Origin: Erpobdella octoculata
Taxonomy: Eukaryota; Annelida; Clitellata; Hirudinida; Erpobdellidae
Reading direction: 5' to 3'
Assembly (NCBI GenBank): GCA_963978895.1
Contig: OZ022238.1
Coordinates: forward strand, 23,034,284 to 23,098,283
Length of the DNA stretch: 64,000 nucleotides
Shown here: positions 6,984-61,857 of the stretch, piece after piece
How positions within the stretch are numbered: position 1 is the stretch's first letter
How the letters are laid out: each line of letters starts with the position of its first letter
Notes under the pieces: generated by a model
The model's database searches: none
Told to the model about the DNA's origin: nothing
What the model saw: the letters and a program-made list of their open reading frames with translations, nothing else
Program-made: the position numbers and the translations under genes

Positions 6984-7036
<53 letters not shown>
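6978..7036. repeat. (AT)n microsatellite
   Basis: An AT run that joins the Helitron 3' end directly to the repetitive ORF of the Penelope-like unit. Confidence 0.98.
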
Positions 7037-7038
<2 letters not shown>

Positions 7039-7779
7039 AGTTGCATCGAGACTGTGCGTTTGATCGAACAGTGCTTTATCGATCCGTCGGCTATCTGCCG
7101 GCCTTCTTCGGACCCGGTGAATGGTGATATGCCACAGGCCTCACCATCGACTGTTCTCCCGCTTTCTCCCTTTGTCACACCTCGTCTTTCGCTCTCAGAT
7201 TTATCTGTACTCCGTACTAGGAGTTCGGCAACCAAAACTACAGGTGTTTCCCATTACAGTTACGACCATCTTTGTGACCAGTACGACAACGGTTCCATTT
7301 CTCGTCGAGTTTTATCTCCTTTGTCTGCCAACGCAATAGACGCTGCCAACGAAATAGACCCTACCAACTGTATCGATGTTTCAAATGCAACCGAACTGTG
7401 CCCTGCCGACCTGCCAAGGACTCCGCTATTCACTGTTCTCCCGCATTCTCCTTTTGTCACACCTCGCCTCTCCTTTTCTGATTTATCTGAACTCCGTACT
7501 AGGAGTTCGCCAACCAAGACTACAAATGTATCTTATCACAGTTATGATCATCCTTGCGACCAATACGACAACGGCCCAGTTTGTGGTCCTGTTTCCTTTC
7601 CTCCATCTACCAACCATATTGAAGCGTTGGACGCGGTCGAACAGTGCTCCACTGGTTTGTCAGCCATGAGCCAACCTCCTCGATGCCTCGAGACTGCTGA
7701 CCTGCGTGATGGTGATGGGACCGGTGCGATGTGTCCGCATTTGATCGATAACTGCAATATTACTATACGTAGACGTTGA
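7036..7779 (+). CDS. Repetitive ORF upstream of a hammerhead-like motif (partial, start not resolved)
   Basis: An open frame that enters from the (AT)n array and ends at 7779, giving about 247 non-(Tyr-Ile) residues with ordinary codon use. A module containing SPFVTPRLS, SDLS, LRTRSS, TKTT and SYDH.CDQYDNG occurs twice, 94 codons apart (from 7150 and 7432), with many synonymous differences between the copies; weaker pieces of the module flank them. I recognise no catalytic motif: it is not an obvious GIY-YIG domain or reverse transcriptase. It lies about 360 bp before the hammerhead-like motif, so it may be the 3' end of a Penelope-like ORF. That link is inference. Confidence 0.45.
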
Positions 7780-8133
7780 TCATTTTCAACTTTTAATTAA
7801 ACTCTTAATTTTATCGATATCCTATTATCTTTGAATTGTAGCTTTAAATTCTTATTTTATTATTTTACCTCTTTGCTTTTATTAGTAATTTTCTTTTAAT
7901 AGTTATATTTTACTACTTAATTTGGTTGTATATTTTAGCATATGTAATTTTTATTTTTTCTTATTTTTTGTTTATTTATTTACTCCGAGGCAAAAAATTT
8001 GGTTGTTTCTTAGCGGTTTTCATATTTTGCTTTTACTCTTCTTTGTACTTTGACCTCGATTGATGTGTAAACATATCTGATATGTCTCGCCATACCACTT
8101 TATATATTTTCGTTGTAGCTGTATATTAGTTTT
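7780..8133. other. Non-coding AT-rich part of the pseudo-LTR
   Basis: No gene seen. It is T-rich and connects the ORF stop to the ribozyme motif. It would be the untranslated and promoter region if the Penelope-like reading is right. Confidence 0.35.
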
Positions 8134-8182
8134 ATGAGTTCTGATGATGGCTAATAAAGCCGAAACCTGCAGGTCAGCTCAT
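8134..8182 (+). ncRNA. Hammerhead-like ribozyme motif (type I, minimal stem III)
   Basis: Stem I 5' strand ATGAGTT (8134-8140) pairs with AGCTCAT (8176-8182), 7 bp with one G-U. The core CTGATGA is at 8141-8147. Stem II is GGC/GCC with loop TAATAAA. GAA lies at 8162-8164, and A8165 would pair with T8174. Stem III is CCTG/CAGG with no loop, so it would need a dimer, as described for Penelope-element hammerheads. H17 would be C8175, with cleavage after it. Odd point: one extra T (8148) lies between CTGATGA and stem II where canonical ribozymes have a G-C closing pair, so activity is uncertain. The second copy at 33.1 kb has the same feature. Confidence 0.6.
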
Positions 8183-8320
8183 GACCAAAACATTAATAAA
8201 AATATATACCAGTTTGTTCAAAAGTGTCTTGGTATTTCTGATTTTCGAAAAGTTTCACGTTTGATAGAAAAAGTTTGTAATAAGAAATGGGCCATAGTCT
8301 TTAATAAAGCGTGTTTGAAA

Positions 8321-9808
<1,488 letters not shown>

Positions 9809-9839: not shown

Positions 9840-10279
<440 letters not shown>

Positions 10280-19440: not shown

Positions 19441-20379
19441 GATATATTTGTCTAACTATTTATTGTCTATGCTAATATGTTTGTTGTCTATGTAGTAAAA
19501 ATATAAAAGTGTGTTTCTAAAAAACTTTGTTTTTGTTTCACTTGTCTATGTATAGAATGGATTATTTAACACATTTACAAAGCATGACTGGCATAACAAA
19601 CATCTAAATAAAAAAGTGACACTCTCATTTGAGATCACTCAAGTTATCGATCATCAGATGTCTCACAGTGGCATAGACACTCAGACTGGGCCCCTTGGAC
19701 AAGAAAATTTTTTCCCAAATAGCTAATGACCAGACGAACCTAGTTGTGGCTACTATTCCAAATTTTTCCAAAACCTCCTACACTTTTTCCACAAAAACAG
19801 CGATGACCAATGGGGTGGGGTAGTCGTAGCTACTTTAAAAAAAATTACATTTTTTTTTATTGACAAATAAATTTAATAAAAACAATTTTCAATTAAATCT
19901 CGAGGACCCCTTGACTGGTCTTGCCTCCAATTTAGAAACCATGCTTTTACCATTGCAGGTCAGGTTCAATGTAACAGCTTGCCTGTGCATTTTCGACAAT
20001 CTATAGACACTAAACAATTCAAAATCAGGCTAAAGACATATATCTTTTTTAATTCAATGATGCACTCCTTTGCAGAAAACTTTTTTTTTATTAGGGTGCA
20101 TTACAAATGTTATTTGCATTGTATTGTATTGAACTGACATCTCATGAACAATAAGTACAATCTGTTTTTACATAGTATCTTGTTAATGTTTGTCTTTCAT
20201 ATCTTGGATGTAATGGATTTTTGGATTCCCATTTCTATGGCTTCTCGAAATATGTGATAGCGAGATTATACTAATATTTCTTTCTAAAAACTATGCCAAT
20301 GAACAGTTATACAAAGCTAGAAAATCTTATACAACTGAATTGAATAAGTCATTCAGGCAATGGATTCAAAATAACTGAA

Positions 20380-21588
20380 CAACCATTGTTAATAAAAAAA
20401 ATAAATAAAGAGCAATATGGCTTCTTGAGAGGTACATCTACTGTGCTTCAACTTCTGAGATTTCTCGATGATGTGACTCAAAGTTATGATGAAGGAAATA
20501 AATGTCATGTAATTCACACTGATATCGAAAAAGCATTCGATAGAGTCCCACACAACAGGCTGTTATATAAGTTGAAGATTTACGGTGTTGATGAGAAAAA
20601 ATTGTCATGGATTTGCAGTTTCCTGGTCAATAGATCTTTTCGAGTACGAATGAACGATTCATTTTCAGAATGGTTAAATTTCAAGAGCGGAGTTCCACAA
20701 GGCAGTGTGTTGGGACCAATTCTGTTTGTGATTTATATCAACGATTTGATTGATGTGATGGAGGGGGCTGGTGGACTGCTTCTGTTTGCCGATGATACAA
20801 AGATGTATAAAACAATCCTGAAGGAAGAAGACTGTCACAAGGGCCATGACATGGTTTAACAAATGGTTGATGAAAGTTAATGGAAAGTATGGAGTATGAA
20901 AGTTCATGTAGAAAAATGTATGGTACTTAAATTCAGTGGTAAAGTGAGGTTTCATCATACAATGAAAGAAACATAAATGAAGTGGAATCGATCAAGGATT
21001 TGGGAGTGACTTTTGGATAAAAGGTCATTCACGAGTTTGTACACATCGCTGGTAAGAAGCAAGCTGGAGTATGCCGTTACTATCTGGTCGCCTCAGTCAA
21101 TTGGATTGATGGAAGAGTTGGAGAAAGTACAGAGGAGAGCAACGAAAATACCGAAGCAGTGCAAAAATATGAATTACAGACAAAGGATGGAATATTTGAA
21201 CTTGCCGACTCTAAAGTACAGAAGAGACAGGGGCAACATGATCGAGACCTTTAAGATTCTTAAGGGTTTTTAAGATATAAATTGTTCTCCATCCTTAAGA
21301 TTGACGGAAACAAAGAAGACAAGAGGAAATTCATTTAAACTGGTCGTTCTACAGGCGCTTAAAGACATAAGAAAATACATTTTTCCCCTGAGAGTGACCA
21401 GTTTATGGAACAGTTTGACGAATGATGTTGTTTGTGCAGAAACGATGGATGATTTTAAATTGAAATTGGGCGAGGCGTGGATGACGAGGAGACATGTGTG
21501 ATCGTGCAGCGGTTGTTTGAATTTGAAATTGAGAGGCAAGAAGGCAATGTGCCTTACGCCTTATTCAATTAATAATAATAATAATAAA
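20380..21588 (+). pseudogene. Second LINE, reverse transcriptase relic
   Basis: RT motifs in order: KEQYGFLRGTSTVLQL, IEKAFDRVPH (motif A), GVPQGSVLGPILF (motif B) and LLFADDTKMY (catalytic FADD). A frameshift or stop follows at about 20855. The C-terminal parts LEYAVTIWSPQ, LQ-type KVQRRATK and TSLWNSLTNDVV lie in two further frames. It ends in an (AAT)n tail at 21570-21588. This is a different lineage from the 0.1-2 kb LINE. No endonuclease was seen upstream, so it is 5'-truncated. Confidence 0.8.
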
Positions 21589-23416: not shown

Positions 23417-24528
23417 TTGATCAGTGATTTATATTTATACTGTTTCCTATAAAAGAGTATCTTTAACTGTCTGAGATTGAAAATGTTTATCTTCTTGCAT
23501 TTTGAGGTCAAAAACATGGCAGATTCCTTTCAGGTAAACTGCGATACAATACTGTAGAAATGGCAGCGGTTGTTGCTCGCTATGTTCCACTAATGACTGA
23601 TGAACAAAGAATGATTTAGGACCGCATTATACTGGCAGTTTTGGAAGGACAAGGTGGATTCTTTTTTTTTGGATGCACCAGGTGGAACTGGGAAAAAATT
23701 TCTCATTTCTCTAATTCTCGCCGAAATACGATCAAATAATCACATAGCTTTGGCCGTTGCATCGTCTGGCATTGCAGCAACTTTATTGCATGGAGGCAGA
23801 ACAGCTCATTCAGCACTTAAGCAATGTGCAACATAAAAAAGCAATCATCCATGGCCACAGAAAGAGTTATTTTGCAGCAAAAAATGTGGATGTCAATGAT
23901 TTAAATTTTAAGATACACCAGTTGTTGCCAGGCGAATTGGTGTCATACAAATCGATTGATACAGTTTGCGATGCCAGCGTAGCCATAAATTATCCAACAG
24001 AGTTTTTGAACTCATTGGATTTGCCAGGCATGTCACCGCATCGTCTACAACTTAAAGTTGGATCTCCGGTTATTCTACTTCGGAATTTGAACCCACCGCG
24101 GCTGTGCAATGGCACGCGATTAGTAATTAAAAAATTGATTTAAAACATTGTCGTTGCCAGCATTTTGAATGGCAAGTTCCGAGGAGAAAGTGTTTTGCTG
24201 CCACGGATCTCAATAATTTCTACAGAAGTGCATATTGAATTCAAATGAATTCAATTTACAATTAGATTGGCATTCGCAATGACAATTAATAAGTCGCAAG
24301 GCCAAACAATGTCTGTTTGTGGCTTAGATTTGGGTACGCCATATTTTTCTCACGAACAATTACCTATACGTGGCATGTTCTTGCGAGGGCAAACCATCCA
24401 GTTTGTTTGTGTTGGCTAAAGATGATCTGACAAAAAACATTGTTTTTTTTAAATTGACAGAATTAAACTTTTAATAAAAAAAACTAAAATAATTTATAAG
24501 GCAAAACAACGTTTGCTGGGTCAGCTAG
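23116..24528 (+). mobile_element. Helitron with deleted helicase, copy 2
   Basis: Begins TCTATATATATAAAAGTCTC and ends GGGTCAGCTAG (CTRR). It sits between an A and a T of the host hAT repeat with no duplication, as Helitrons do. Helicase fragments: [15 protein letters not shown] (Walker A, GGTGK), then, after an internal deletion, LNFKIHQLLPGELVSYKSID, VGSPVILLRNLN and [20 protein letters not shown]. An (AT)n array is at 23337-23412. Frameshifts make it inactive, and the Rep domain is missing. Confidence 0.9.
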
Positions 24529-32872: not shown

Positions 32873-33175
<303 letters not shown>

Positions 33176-33299
33176 CACTGATCTCTATAATATAACTGGA
33201 TTGCGCTTAGACCTGTCTGGGTGTCGCCTCGCCGCTGGTCGCCATTTTGGAAGGCCAACTATCTGATGCTATTGACGGAATCTTTTTAGAAGTTTAAAA

Positions 33300-35150: not shown

Positions 35151-36019
35151 TTAGACAATGACAATTTATATCTTTCAACTTGTTTTCAATAAGTCATGTT
35201 GTGTTTATCTTTGTTCATTTCTGTCTTCGGTATTATATCAGTTTATTTAATATATTTTTTTATAAGTAATAACAAGTTTTTTTTCTCAACCAGATGGGTG
35301 CATATGACTTACATTACATGTAACAAATAATGTCTATTTCACCTGTTAATTTTTAGTTTGGCATTAAATTATTTAATTCAAATATCATTTCCTTCTCATT
35401 TGTAATCTTAAAGCCTAAAAACTGAATCAAATGAAAAACCTTTACAAATGATAAAAATTAAATGAAATTTTAATATGCTATAGTCTACAATACAATGTAA
35501 CTTGTTCAGCCTAAACTCCTAAAGGCCCTAAACTAAGTATATTATTCGTTGACCCATTATTATAGACTAGACTTAGACTTTAGACTATATATATAGTATA
35601 CACCTAGGTGACACAAAAAATACCGTTAACTTTGAAAAAATTCTCAAGGAAAATGTCTTTATTTAATTTCTTTATTAACACAACATAACTTACTACTACA
35701 TTTAACAAACATTTTGATGATAAAAGTTACTATACTAAATAGACTCAAAACTTTTCGAGTCATACAGTTTCTTGTACAAACTATTCTGTACTTGCTAAAC
35801 TAGCTAGCTAAACCATAGCGTAGCGATTTTCTTGCGGTGATCTGCAGCGCGTTTCATCTGTGTGACTGCCAAATCTTTTGCATGTGTTACCGAATAACTA
35901 TCATAATGACCGTAGTAAAAAAAATGTTAAAAATACCGAATAACAAATTTTATTTTCAAGTAAAATAGTTTAATTTAATTAAAACCCCCTAATTGTTCGT
36001 ATATCATGCGACGACCGAC
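35151..36019. other. Non-coding 3' part of the P-family element
   Basis: AT-rich, no ORF seen. Includes short palindromic TATATA strings. It is the region between the THAP stop and the inner micro-element. Confidence 0.45.
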
Positions 36020-36054
36020 CACTGATCTCTATAATATTATTTTAGAGATCAGTG
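36020..36054. mobile_element. 35-bp micro P-type insertion nested in the P-family element
   Basis: CACTGATCTCTA (36020-36031) and TAGAGATCAGTG (36043-36054) are the first 12 bp of the P-family TIR, facing each other across 11 bp. It is flanked by identical 8-bp CGACCGAC at 36012-36019 and 36055-36062. Reads as a second insertion of the same family reduced to its two tips. Confidence 0.75.
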
Positions 36055-36165
36055 CGACCGACGTAAACACGACGGCTGGACTGGTAACATGGCGGCAAAC
36101 TGGCGACAACATTTCTATTGAAACAATGGGCTAAGCGCAATCCAGTTATATTATAGAGATCAGTG

Positions 36166-36440
36166 CATCAGAGCCGTTTAACTTTTTAAAATAAAATGCA
36201 GTGACTAAATGGTAAAAGATACAACTAATTGAAAGGAATTAAAATACAATTTAAATAAAATTTAAATTCATTATATACAAATGTAACAACATAAAAAATA
36301 TTTAAATTAAAATAATTATAATAATAACAGTAATAACTAAATAATTAAGATCAGTTAGTAAAGCCTTTAACAACGGAATTACAGTCAACTTCAAGGACGT
36401 GACTGGAAGAAGAATCACATACATTATCTATAACCTTTGA
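36166..36440 (-). mobile_element. Penelope-like unit, copy 3 (upstream part)
   Basis: Continues copy 3 beyond the P-family element. On the minus strand it reads a short frame ending DCNSVVKGFTN and a stop, then AT-rich DNA to the hammerhead core, the same layout as 7.7-8.1 kb (there the ORF ends NCNITIRRR). Left limit is an (AT)n array near 36449. Confidence 0.4.
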
Positions 36441-57900: not shown

Positions 57901-58490
57901 TCATATATCATATGATTTTCTACTGGGATCCAGTACTATCCGTTTTGCAGGGTTGCAATAACGTTTAGGTCTTGCCTCCGGTTCTATTCCTGTTGGAATG
58001 TGTGTCAACTCCTCCGGATTGGCTTCATTATCCATATGACTCGGAACATGGTCTCCTTGTCTATTCTCTCCATCCTCATTCTCCGTAACCCGAGGGGTTG
58101 CGTTTATGTCTGGTTCCAACATCTCTTCCTCTCCTGGGAACACAATTCTTACTGGGGCTTTCTCTCCATCACTTTTATCTTGAAGAGGTACTGGCATGTC
58201 GAATGTCTCAAACATTTCTTTAAGTGCCCAATCTAAATTCATTAGTCTTAAATGATTTGTATGTCTTTTTGTAATCCTTCTGTCAATCTCAACTTCGTAA
58301 GCCGTTTTTCCATTTCTTTTTAAAATCTTTCCTGGTATCCATCTGGGATGGTTTGGATTTTTATAATCTCTAGCGTACACCGCATCTTGTTCTTTAAAGA
58401 CTTTCGGTCTTGCCCCATTCCTTTTGTCAAACTGTCTCTTCACGCAAGATTTTTTTTCTGAATACTTTTCGTCTTTTTTAGTACTTAATT
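57901..58490 (-). pseudogene. gypsy integrase C-terminal region
   Basis: KRQFDKRNGARPKVF, VYARDYKNPNHPRWIPGKIL and RHTNHLRL: the post-core region of K02A2.6-type gypsy integrases, followed by an acidic tail ending SRKSYDI and then the polypurine tract. Separated from the core by a frame change near 58450. Confidence 0.85.
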
Positions 58491-58865
58491 GTAAGTCTGA
58501 TAGTGGTGTTCTAATTTATCTCCCCAAAACATTTTCTGCGGGGGATTTTTGATGTAGACTAAATGGGCATGGTGTAGATCTATAACACAATAAAATCTTT
58601 CAAATTCCATAGAAGTAAACTGTGTTCCGTTATCTGATACCAATGTCTTTGGAAATCCATACCGAGCAAACATTCTGTTCAGCTCGCGAATTGTCGTTGT
58701 TGAGGTAGCCGCACTCATTTGTATTATTTCTGGCCATTTTGAATATGCGTCCACAACAACCAGAAACATTGAATTCTCCATTGGTCCGGCAAAATCAATG
58801 TGAATTCTCTCCCAGGTCTGTGATGGTTCAAGCCATGGTGACAACGTGTTTTTATAGGCATTTTA
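58491..58865 (-). pseudogene. gypsy integrase catalytic core, third acidic residue lost
   Basis: WERIHIDFAGPM holds the first Asp, LVSDNGTQFTS the second. After EFERF the sequence jumps to the region that normally follows the catalytic Glu, so the block with NGQAER-type Glu is deleted. A frame change lies near 58550. Confidence 0.8.
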
Positions 58866-59760
58866 GCTGCTTTTTGAAATGCATCACAGGTTTTCACCAT
58901 ACTTTCAATATCTCTATCGATTCCATGCCAATACACCGACTGTCTGGCCAGCATTTTCATTCTCGTAATTCCTGGATGACCCTGATGTAGCATCATCAAT
59001 ATACGCTGTTGCAGTTTTTTTGGAATCACTGCTCTTACACCCATAAATAGAATGCCATCATGTAAAGTCAAATCAGTTGCTTTACTTTGGAATGCATTCC
59101 AGTTTGATCCAGGTTTAACTTTTGGCCAAAATCCCTTTTTAATGATCTCACTTAACTCTCTGAGTTCAGAGTCTTCTTCTGTCATAATTTGAATATCTTT
59201 CTTACTAACAGGTAATTGTCTCATCGTATCCTCTTGTATCATTGTGATGTCTTCGTTTACACCTGCTATTATCAAATCCTCATTTCCTGTTGTTTTTTTG
59301 GAATCAACGAGTCTTGATAAGGCATCAGCTTGACCAAAATTTGCTGTTCGTCGATATTCGATCTCAAAATCATAAGCTAAGAGTATCAGTTCCCATCTCT
59401 GCAGTCTGTTTGCAGCGTGTGCAGATATTCCTTTCTTTGAACCAAATACTGACAAGAGAGGCTTGTGATCGGTCAATAGCGTAAACCGCCTTCCATAAAC
59501 AAATCTATGGAATTTTCTTACTGCAAAAACTAGGGCTAAAGCTTCTTTTTCTATTTGGCCGTAATTCTTTTCTGCTTGGGTCAGTGCACGGCCCGCATGA
59601 GCGACTGCTTTTTCTGTTCCATTAAGAAATCGGTGTGAAATCACTGCTCCAATTCCGTATTCACATGCATCAGCAGCTATTACGATGTCTCTTTTGGGAT
59701 CATAATGCGTCAGCAATAAATTTGATTGTAACACCTTCTTAAGACTTGTGAAAGATTCCT
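58724..59760 (-). pseudogene. gypsy RNase H and integrase zinc finger
   Basis: IAADACEYGIGAVISHR (RNase H first Asp), EKEALALVFAVRKFHRF (Glu), LLTDHKPLL (Asp) and the tail NFGQADALSRL. Then HQGHPGITRMKMLAR ... YWHGIDRDIE ... CDAFQ: the HHCC integrase finger with its last Cys changed to Phe. A long frame, broken only at both ends. Confidence 0.9.
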
Positions 59761-60560
59761 GGTGTACTCTTAACCATTCAAACTTCTAATTTTTTTTTAA
59801 GTCATCTAGTGTGCCTCTCATTTGTCTCATCTTTGGTACAAAAACAGAATAGTAACTAACCATACCCAAAAACGATTTTAACTGTTTTCTGTCTTTTGGT
59901 GGGGGCATTTCTATAATTGCTGTTATTTTTCTGGGTCTGGTTTTCGGCTTTCTTTGCTGATAATATGGCCTAGAAATTTAATCTCTTTCTTGGCAAAAGA
60001 GCAATTGTCCATCTTGACTCTAAATCCAAAATCTGAAATCCGTTTGAATAGTTCAAAAACATTCATATTGTGTTCTTCCAATGTGCCGGTCACAATTACA
60101 TCGTCCAGGTAAGCCGCACAACCTTTTAACCCTGAAGTTAAATTATCTATTGTTTCCTGGAAAATACCTGGTGCACTTTTTACTCCAAAGAAAAGTCTCT
60201 GGTACTGATATAGACCTTTAGGAGTGTTGATCGTAACGAGCTCTTTTGACGATTCGTCCATTTCCAACTGTAGATATGCATCAGCAAAATCTACTTGAGT
60301 AAACCAAGCTCCTTGGTTTAATTTTGAAAAAAATTCATCCGTTAAGGCCTGTTTTAAAATCAGCACAGATGCGCACCGTTCCGCTTTTCTTTGGAACAAC
60401 CACAATCGGTGCCGCCCAGTGACTGTATTCAACTTTTTTAAGAACTCCTTCATTGACTAATTTTTCAAGTTCCCTAATGGTTATTTCTTCGTAAGCAAAA
60501 GGTATTTTTCGTGGTCTGCAAAATTTTGGCTGAGACTCTGATTTAAAGAGCAATCTTGCC
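59761..60560 (-). pseudogene. gypsy reverse transcriptase
   Basis: GVLKKVEYSHWAAPIVVVPK, FTQVDFADAYLQLEM (motif A Asp), the FFGVKSAPGIFQ block and CAAYLDDVIVTG (catalytic YLDD). A frameshift near 60345 divides it and another near 59900 separates it from the thumb. Catalytic residues are intact. Confidence 0.9.
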
Positions 60561-60645
60561 TTTTTTTACTGCAATGGCCCAATTCTTCTTTGAAAACATT
60601 TGGAAACTCTGTTTGTAACCGAACAGCTAAACCGTTTTCTTCCTG

Positions 60646-61851
60646 CTAAGGCTTTTCTGCAACAGAAAAACAGATTGCATCAAACGCTTTTATCATTGGT
60701 GGAAGTTGATCCATCCATTCAATTCCCAGAAGTTGTGTTGTATTTTTGGCCACAAAACAGCGTCCATTGCCTGTGAATCTTGCGCACGAAAATTTGGTTT
60801 GAAATTCACCTAGTACTTGAATTTCAGTACCGTTTGCAGCACCAATTTTTGTTGTTGTCTTATTTAGCCTTGGTGAACCAATCTTCACCCAAGTTTTTGT
60901 ACTGATGATTGTGACATCGGCTCCGGAGTCCAGCTGCATCCTAATTTCGACATCACCAAATTTCACCGTGGTGTATCTTCTATTGGCTGCTATAATTGTT
61001 CGCTTGCTGGGAATTGTCTTGACTTGCCGTATTTCGTGTCGTCTATACGACAGACTTGGACTCCTCCTTAAGCTTGGACTTCTCTTTCTACTGAAAAGTC
61101 TTTTGGGACTTTTATCATCAGTTCTGCAGTTGGTAGCAAAATGTCCCGGTTTTCCACAGCGAAAACAAACATTTTTATTTACGGGTGAACCCCGGATTTC
61201 TTGGCTGGAAGATTTTTTAGGTGATATTTCTGAATAGTAATTAACCTTACTAACTAAGGTTTCTGAAATCATCATTTGTTCTGTATGTAACAGTTTTATC
61301 CTTTCACATTCTTCAATAAGCTCTTCCAGTGAGCATTCTTGTTCTACCCTGACCAGTAATTTGTGCTTAATGTTCAAATATTTCGGATCCTTCAATCCCC
61401 ATATAAAATGTAAGCACATACTGGCTTCTTTTGTGAAATTTTCCCATTGTGCTTCGTTGCACAGCCTGTTCACCCTTGTGCCGAATGCTCTGAAAGTCTC
61501 TGAGTTCCTTATTTGGAGGTTTTCAAAATCAAACCGTCTTTGATGAATGCTTTTTTTATTACCAAACAGTTTTTCTAGCCAACCTTTTGTCTCCTCATAG
61601 TTTAGACTCTCGATTGTTCTCGGCAATATACTACCCTTAAGTAGCGTGTATTCGTTTTGTTGAAGCTTCCCGGACAGAGTTGCTCTTTTTTCTGAATCGC
61701 TCATTGATTCGCCTCCGACTGACTGAACAGCTTCTTCAAATTGCCCAATCCAATCAGTGAATGTAAGGCCTTGATCTGGATCGTAAACAAATTGCTCAAT
61801 TCGTTTGTAGAGGTCTGGTCTTACTTCGACGGATCTATTGTCCTGCATCAT
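60646..61851 (-). CDS. gag: gypsy gag with zinc knuckle and aspartic protease
   Basis: 401 codons. The capsid-like part has FTDWIGQFEEAVQSVG and a QIRNSETFRAFGTRVNRLC block. A CCHC knuckle CFRCGKPGHFATNC lies near residue 235. A basic RS-like linker follows, then the protease MQLDSGADVTIISTK with DSG catalytic motif near residue 310. The frame is open throughout; the start at 61851 is the first ATG of the frame. Joined to RT only through a stop/frame change at about 60650. Confidence 0.9.
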   Translation of the reverse strand: MMQDNRSVEVRPDLYKRIEQFVYDPDQGLTFTDWIGQFEEAVQSVGGESMSDSEKRATLSGKLQQNEYTLLKGSILPRTIESLNYEETKGWLEKLFGNKKSIHQRRFDFENLQIRNSETFRAFGTRVNRLCNEAQWENFTKEASMCLHFIWGLKDPKYLNIKHKLLVRVEQECSLEELIEECERIKLLHTEQMMISETLVSKVNYYSEISPKKSSSQEIRGSPVNKNVCFRCGKPGHFATNCRTDDKSPKRLFSRKRSPSLRRSPSLSYRRHEIRQVKTIPSKRTIIAANRRYTTVKFGDVEIRMQLDSGADVTIISTKTWVKIGSPRLNKTTTKIGAANGTEIQVLGEFQTKFSCARFTGNGRCFVAKNTTQLLGIEWMDQLPPMIKAFDAICFSVAEKP

Positions 61852-61857
61852 TGAGAT

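Follow-up and report, generated by a model that had tools for sequence, protein, structure and literature searches.

The window, i.e., the whole 64,000-nucleotide stretch of Erpobdella octoculata contig OZ022238.1 analysed here, holds remnants of three Penelope-like elements (PLEs), two of which include a hammerhead-like motif. The first, at 7034-8323 on the forward strand, is a 5′-truncated PLE flanked on both sides by (TA)n, and comprises the end of one unit's open reading frame (ORF), the pseudo-LTR (pLTR), the hammerhead, and the first 177 nt of the next ORF. It is 96.3% identical over 1,312 aligned columns to a tandem unit elsewhere in the genome (locus L009, described below). A C-terminal piece of the PLE ORF at 7037-7779 (+), in the frame and with the ending of the intact L009 ORF (...LIDNCNITIRRR and a stop codon), is followed at 7780-8146 (+) by an untranslated leader, or pLTR, that lies between the two ORF pieces and runs into the ribozyme. 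The next PLE ORF is represented at 8147-8323 (+) by its first 59 codons (...NKACLKE), which give way to (TA)n at a 3′ limit of the type designated type 1 below. This copy is a dead insertion with an intact-looking ribozyme and no intact ORF. The second remnant, a divergent PLE tail at 32998-33176 on the reverse strand, contains a hammerhead core from 33173 with an extra T, a palindromic stem III (ATAGATCTAT) and a stem I of 3 bp; its AUGs and the reverse transcriptase (RT) remnant are in different frames. Thirty-nine nucleotides abutting this core (33175-33213, −) are repeated at 36128-36166, and a shorter stretch matches in inverted orientation at 36017-36037. As these nucleotides recur elsewhere, the 33173 copy is probably 5′-truncated at this point, and the repeat suggests another mobile element beside the truncated PLE tail. 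The third remnant, a tail fragment some 100 nt long and bounded by (TA)n runs (~9843-9941, +), passes from the PLE frame into (TA)n and is too short for a ribozyme.

The motif at 8132-8184 (+) is a type-I hammerhead with one extra U after A9, recognized from its sequence and pairing, a fold descriptor, and a local Rfam scan below threshold. Direct reading bears out each of the hammerhead parts originally predicted: the core is formed by CTGATGA (8141-8147) followed by the extra T (8148), GAA (8162-8164) and C8175; stem II by GGC (8149-8151) and GCC (8159-8161) plus a U-A pair, closed by a loop at 8152-8158; and stem III by the palindrome ACCTGCAGGT (8165-8174), through which two ribozyme copies could pair over 10 bp. 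Stem I pairs 8132-8140 with 8176-8184; the 7 bp first reported are correct and become nine pairs when G-U is counted. Cleavage is predicted 3′ of C8175, the position originally proposed. The CUGANGA...GAA...UH core and the three helices follow in type-I order, while the canonical stem II pair 10.1-11.1 is separated from A9 by one U. The ribozyme is therefore filed under a PLE form rather than the canonical hammerhead, because the ribozyme of PAc, the Poseidon element of Anolis carolinensis, has the same insert and is reported to cleave (PMC11167929). The monomeric hammerhead evaluates at −10.9 kcal/mol, against −14.7 kcal/mol for the competing best monomer fold, and a one-core dimer at −28.9 kcal/mol, although comparisons between two-strand and one-strand energies are indicative only.

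A fold descriptor demanding a stem I of at least 4 bp, applied to both strands, has 8132-8184 as its only site in the window, and 300 resamplings of the window under a first-order Markov model gave one site. Relaxed to at least 3 bp, it finds this site and 33173(−), with eight sites in the 300 resamplings. Searching Rfam, the check first suggested for the motif, gave no match in the window at the gathering score. With E ≤ 10, the 60 matches across the whole window, mostly simple-repeat or unrelated, include no hammerhead, and the type-I family RF00163 is not among them. Scanning 8110-8200 alone (91 bases) yielded five matches from 4227 families, the top one being RF02275 (Hammerhead_HH9; 15.2 bits, E 0.15; gathering score 52), whose alignment is in register at 8132-8184 and treats the extra U as an insert. 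A local scan of the 33173(−) copy yields no hammerhead match. The shortness of the motif and its sub-threshold Rfam score are what would be expected of a hammerhead-like string without history, produced by chance or decay. That origin is nevertheless extremely improbable, given one match in 300 resampled windows, the sequence identity of 37 of 39 genomic copies, and the same architecture in PAc.

The copies were found by searching the genome (G000; 386 Mb, 94 contigs) with a 231-base query. Of 486 candidates 40 were scored, all 98-100% identical, and at least 39 copies were found in at least 31 loci. The 55-nt motif is identical in 37 of the 39; one of the two deviating copies has a C to T change in stem II that keeps a G-U pair, the other a change in the stem III loop. 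Locus L009 contains three ribozymes in tandem, spaced 3,830 and 3,829 nt (3.83-kb units), and two intact ORFs of 1,147 codons each, counted from the second AUG. The L009 protein (P0001) matches RVT_1 (E 1.5e-8), and its RT, with 458 homologs at E ≤ 0.001, is PLE-related. Pfam detects no GIY-YIG domain in P0001 itself; its C-terminus can be aligned, YIG.T....L..R included, to the PF01541-matching part of P0127, a homolog of P0080 with both RVT_1 and GIY-YIG. By this alignment, a putative C-terminal GIY-YIG endonuclease is present in the L009 element. Pseudo-LTRs are evident from the L009 tandem and from a partial pLTR-ORF-pLTR arrangement at L018/L038. A retrozyme would be a small non-coding unit between two hammerheads, whereas this unit measures 3.83 kb and has a 1,147-codon ORF. 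Tandem units, an RT, and a C-terminus alignable with GIY-YIG identify the element as Penelope-like. The original prediction had placed the ribozyme in such an element and named the absence of a neighboring RT from intact copies as contrary evidence; intact tandem copies in the genome encode the RT/GIY-YIG frame, and at L009 the RT frame is present. Searches of viral contigs and genome contigs for related loci, made with the protein and with a 14-protein alignment, did not find relatives, and a search for homologous proteins with residues 2-90 alone gave 13 candidates, none of which was scored.

The core of the ribozyme coincides with the start of the ORF. The frame reads CTG ATG ATG: the first AUG (8144-8146) corresponds to A6-U7-G8, and the second (8147-8149, +), which the extra U creates, corresponds to A9, that U and G10.1. 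The second has A at −3, which is A6, and G at +4. An A at −3 combined with G at +4 is a favorable start context. Two codons ahead of the first AUG the frame is closed by a TGA, and apart from the two methionines encoded by the ribozyme core the protein has none until residue 400, so that, barring a spliced upstream exon, no other in-frame AUG precedes the conserved N-terminus. The second AUG is also at the position of the published PAc start codon. The extra T, noticed from the outset in both window copies and seen at 8148 and in the 33173(−) copy, had been interpreted as possibly a variant core rather than decay. The first half of that interpretation is not quite right, since PAc has the same arrangement and the core is not a new one, and the second holds, in view of the 37 identical copies among 39 and of PAc: the extra T belongs to the AUG (A9-U-G10.1) with which the frame starts.

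The resemblance to PAc (PMC11167929) is extensive. Both are PLEs with an RT and GIY-YIG, tandem pLTRs, and a hammerhead overlapping the ORF start; in both, an extra U between A9 and stem II gives the AUG, stem III is palindromic, and 29 nt separate the A of the AUG from the cleavage site. Both also have AT-rich targets and a pair of neighboring sites within the ORF at which RT starts. PMC11167929 places the beginning of the PAc ORF at stem II and the cut 26 bp past the start codon. The printed PAc RNA, compared with both window copies, has CUGAGGA, the extra U, stem II GCC/GGC, GAA, ACGU, and C. The two elements differ at position 7 (G7 in PAc, U7 in the window element), in stem III (ACGU against ACCTGCAGGT), in the length of stem I (three pairs against nine), and in stem II, whose first three pairs are G-C, C-G, C-G in PAc and G-C, G-C, C-G here. 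The pair 10.2-11.2 thus covaries between elements (C-G in PAc, G-C here). As the overlap has already been published for PAc, the present case is the same arrangement in another genome. In the literature searched, ribozyme/start overlap was found only in the text available from PMC11167929, and not in that from PMC7229834, PMC6155905, PMC7761336, PMC6431247, or PMC10085705; this is not a claim that it is unpublished elsewhere. A literature search for CUGAUGAUG with a hammerhead found no paper.

It is likely (probability about 0.8) that the motif is a minimal, dimer-prone type-I hammerhead of a tandem PLE, fused with the start of the ORF in such a way that cleavage would remove the AUG. Stem II, the GAA, and both stem III and the 3′ strand of stem I fall within the first codons. 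In a tandem RNA, two ribozymes would pair through the palindromic stem III, perhaps aided by bound protein, and a cut after C17, 29 nt into the ORF, would leave a downstream piece without a start codon. Cleavage may have a role in shutting off translation. RNA serving as insertion template would be left uncut at its 3′ ribozyme.

The ends of genomic insertions bear on what cleavage may do. Among 41 BLAST rows spanning the cleavage site, 37 have a readable 3′ end; the readable 5′ ends number 36. All 37 of the 3′ ends lie beyond the ribozyme, inside the ORF of the next unit, from which it follows that the RNA used as template extended across an uncut 3′ ribozyme. They fall into two narrow ranges, type 1 (n = 12; after ...TTGAAAGAA) and type 2 (n = 25), 24-27 bases further on. 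In the copies inspected, (TA)n or similar repeats follow. Measured from the ORF start, these ranges lie at about 177 nt and at 201-204 nt, compared with the 111-118 nt reported for PAc. The 36 BLAST-defined 5′ ends all miss the cleavage site; even the closest is 24 nt away, inside the ribozyme (L036). Cleavage as a common setter of insertion 5′ ends was rejected on this count; as most 5′ ends are truncations, they are evidence only against cleavage commonly setting ends.

Head-to-head pairs of 5′-truncated copies, with no or nearly no gap, were observed at L015, L016, L018/L038, L019, L020, L024, and L036. The six head-to-head insertions in which both outer ends could be read have one end of type 1 and the other of type 2. 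This looks as if two cut strands had been primed at different sites, a strand difference not seen with PAc in vitro (PMC11167929).

Alternatively, the ribozyme may serve RNA processing only, trimming tandem transcripts to monomeric or circular templates, with an incidental overlap at the start. The tandem placement of ribozymes 3.83 kb apart would suit this, as would the circles made by retrozymes with type-I hammerheads (PMC7229834), and a circular template may have been read past its junction. However, neither the 5′ nor the 3′ ends described above are those expected of trimmed templates, and in vitro insertion of PAc did not need cleavage (PMC11167929), which leaves processing alone a rather doubtful account.

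For PAc, PMC11167929 reports that the ribozyme cleaved only when protein was added and needed C3 and G8, that insertion in vitro was independent of cleavage, ribozyme mutants still being inserted, and that no RNA-seq reads started or ended at the cleavage site. The insertion of mutants and the lack of such reads, together with the fact that the ribozyme stretch is coding, are also compatible with the ribozyme being a passenger, its sequence kept for the N-terminus that it encodes and its cleavage having no current role. Three elements have perfect palindromes that differ in sequence, and this argues against a passenger.

A second argument against it comes from the N-termini of related proteins. 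Covariation within the element's own family, where 37 of 39 copies are identical, offered nothing countable. The comparison of 195 homologs (120 listed of 458 and 120 listed of 748, overlapping) used proteins with inferred codons. For stem II to form, the residue after Met (N1 N2 N) must pair with the residue before E (N2′ N1′ C); E-T-S fits GAA-ACG-UC, the PAc arrangement, and the test was framed after the N-termini had been seen. E-T-S occurs within the first 20 residues of 11 of the 195 homologs listed. In P0038, P0087, and P0101 no Met lies far enough ahead to accommodate stem II, and seven of the remaining eight permit three stem II pairs, the misfit being P0169. The stem II readings are GAN/TCC (P0070, P0080, and P0100), ACN/GTC (P0146), AAN/TTC (P0147), TTN/AAC (P0161), and TCN/GAC (P0166). 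At control places, those with E before a residue other than T or I, 9 of 187 fit, and random N-terminal residue pairs fit in 8.5% of cases (binomial 2.3e-7). When residues were reshuffled among the eight proteins, seven fits were reached in 20 of 20,000 tries (mean 2.5). With 61% (P0070) and 62% (P0100) identity to P0080, the three are not independent; counted once, they leave 5/6 fits, or about 2e-5 (by hand). E-T without S fits at 2 of 12 places with room (P0002 and P0097), E-I-S at the single place found (P0176), and all Met-E combinations, P0001 included, at 12 of 81. P0002, the closest among the homologs listed, starts MAAAETGR, readable with inferred codons as GCN...GCC-GAA-ACC-GGT. Coding alone does not predict residues compatible with stem II before E-T-S in seven of eight differing proteins, and the passenger explanation is accordingly unlikely. 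Covariation across copies, which the original prediction had looked to, is not visible within the family but does appear at one stem II pair relative to PAc, and the related N-termini suggest that stem II covaries among the elements encoding these proteins. Most of the 195 listed N-termini have no ribozyme-like peptide, so the fusion may not be general.

It is tempting to speculate that in a wide subset of PLEs the ribozyme and the start codon form a single conserved unit, with the catalytic A6 as the −3 base, an obligatory U and a covarying stem II, and that cleavage acts as a one-way translation switch. The protein would bind the RNA of the next unit and promote dimer cleavage just past the AUG, halting its own synthesis, and the start codon would be restored only by ligation, as in a circle. 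This extension of the preferred reading is tentative and, on the whole, improbable. If the core is the start codon in many PLEs, translation shutoff becomes directly testable, and ribozymes would be recognizable from protein N-termini alone.

Minimal type-I folds in PLE pseudo-LTRs, the kind of hammerhead seen in the present element, were reportedly described by Cervera 2014 and Lunse et al. 2017, with cleavage as a dimer proposed. The HDV-like ribozymes of non-LTR retrotransposons, also self-cleaving near the 5′ end but of another ribozyme class, are said to be linked to translation initiation, to go by the title of Ruminski et al. 2011. Metazoan retrozymes likewise have type-I hammerheads in tandem repeats and form circles, but are small and non-autonomous, with RNAs of about 170-400 nt, in contrast to the coding 3.83-kb unit described here (PMC7229834). 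Terminons are PLE-related and have a hammerhead adjoining the 3′ junction; they are giant and located on telomeric repeats, and the accessible part of PMC6431247 does not mention start-codon overlap. PMC7761336 describes the function of PLE hammerheads as unknown.

The window contains further mobile-element sequences. RVT_1 frames at 134-2041 (−) and 20344-20856 (+) are, by eye, not PLE-like, and 58488-61857 (−) resembles an LTR retrotransposon with protease plus zinc knuckle, RT, RNase H, and integrase (Pfam, in 4/4 frames searched). Strong but sub-threshold Rfam matches to mir-1923 (gathering score 94) are located at 8876-8958 (+; 70 bits) and 24093-24175 (−; 64.5 bits). The latter coincides in part with an ORF (23748-24140) encoding a Pif1 2B domain, and the mir-1923 family may therefore derive from Helitron-like helicase sequence.
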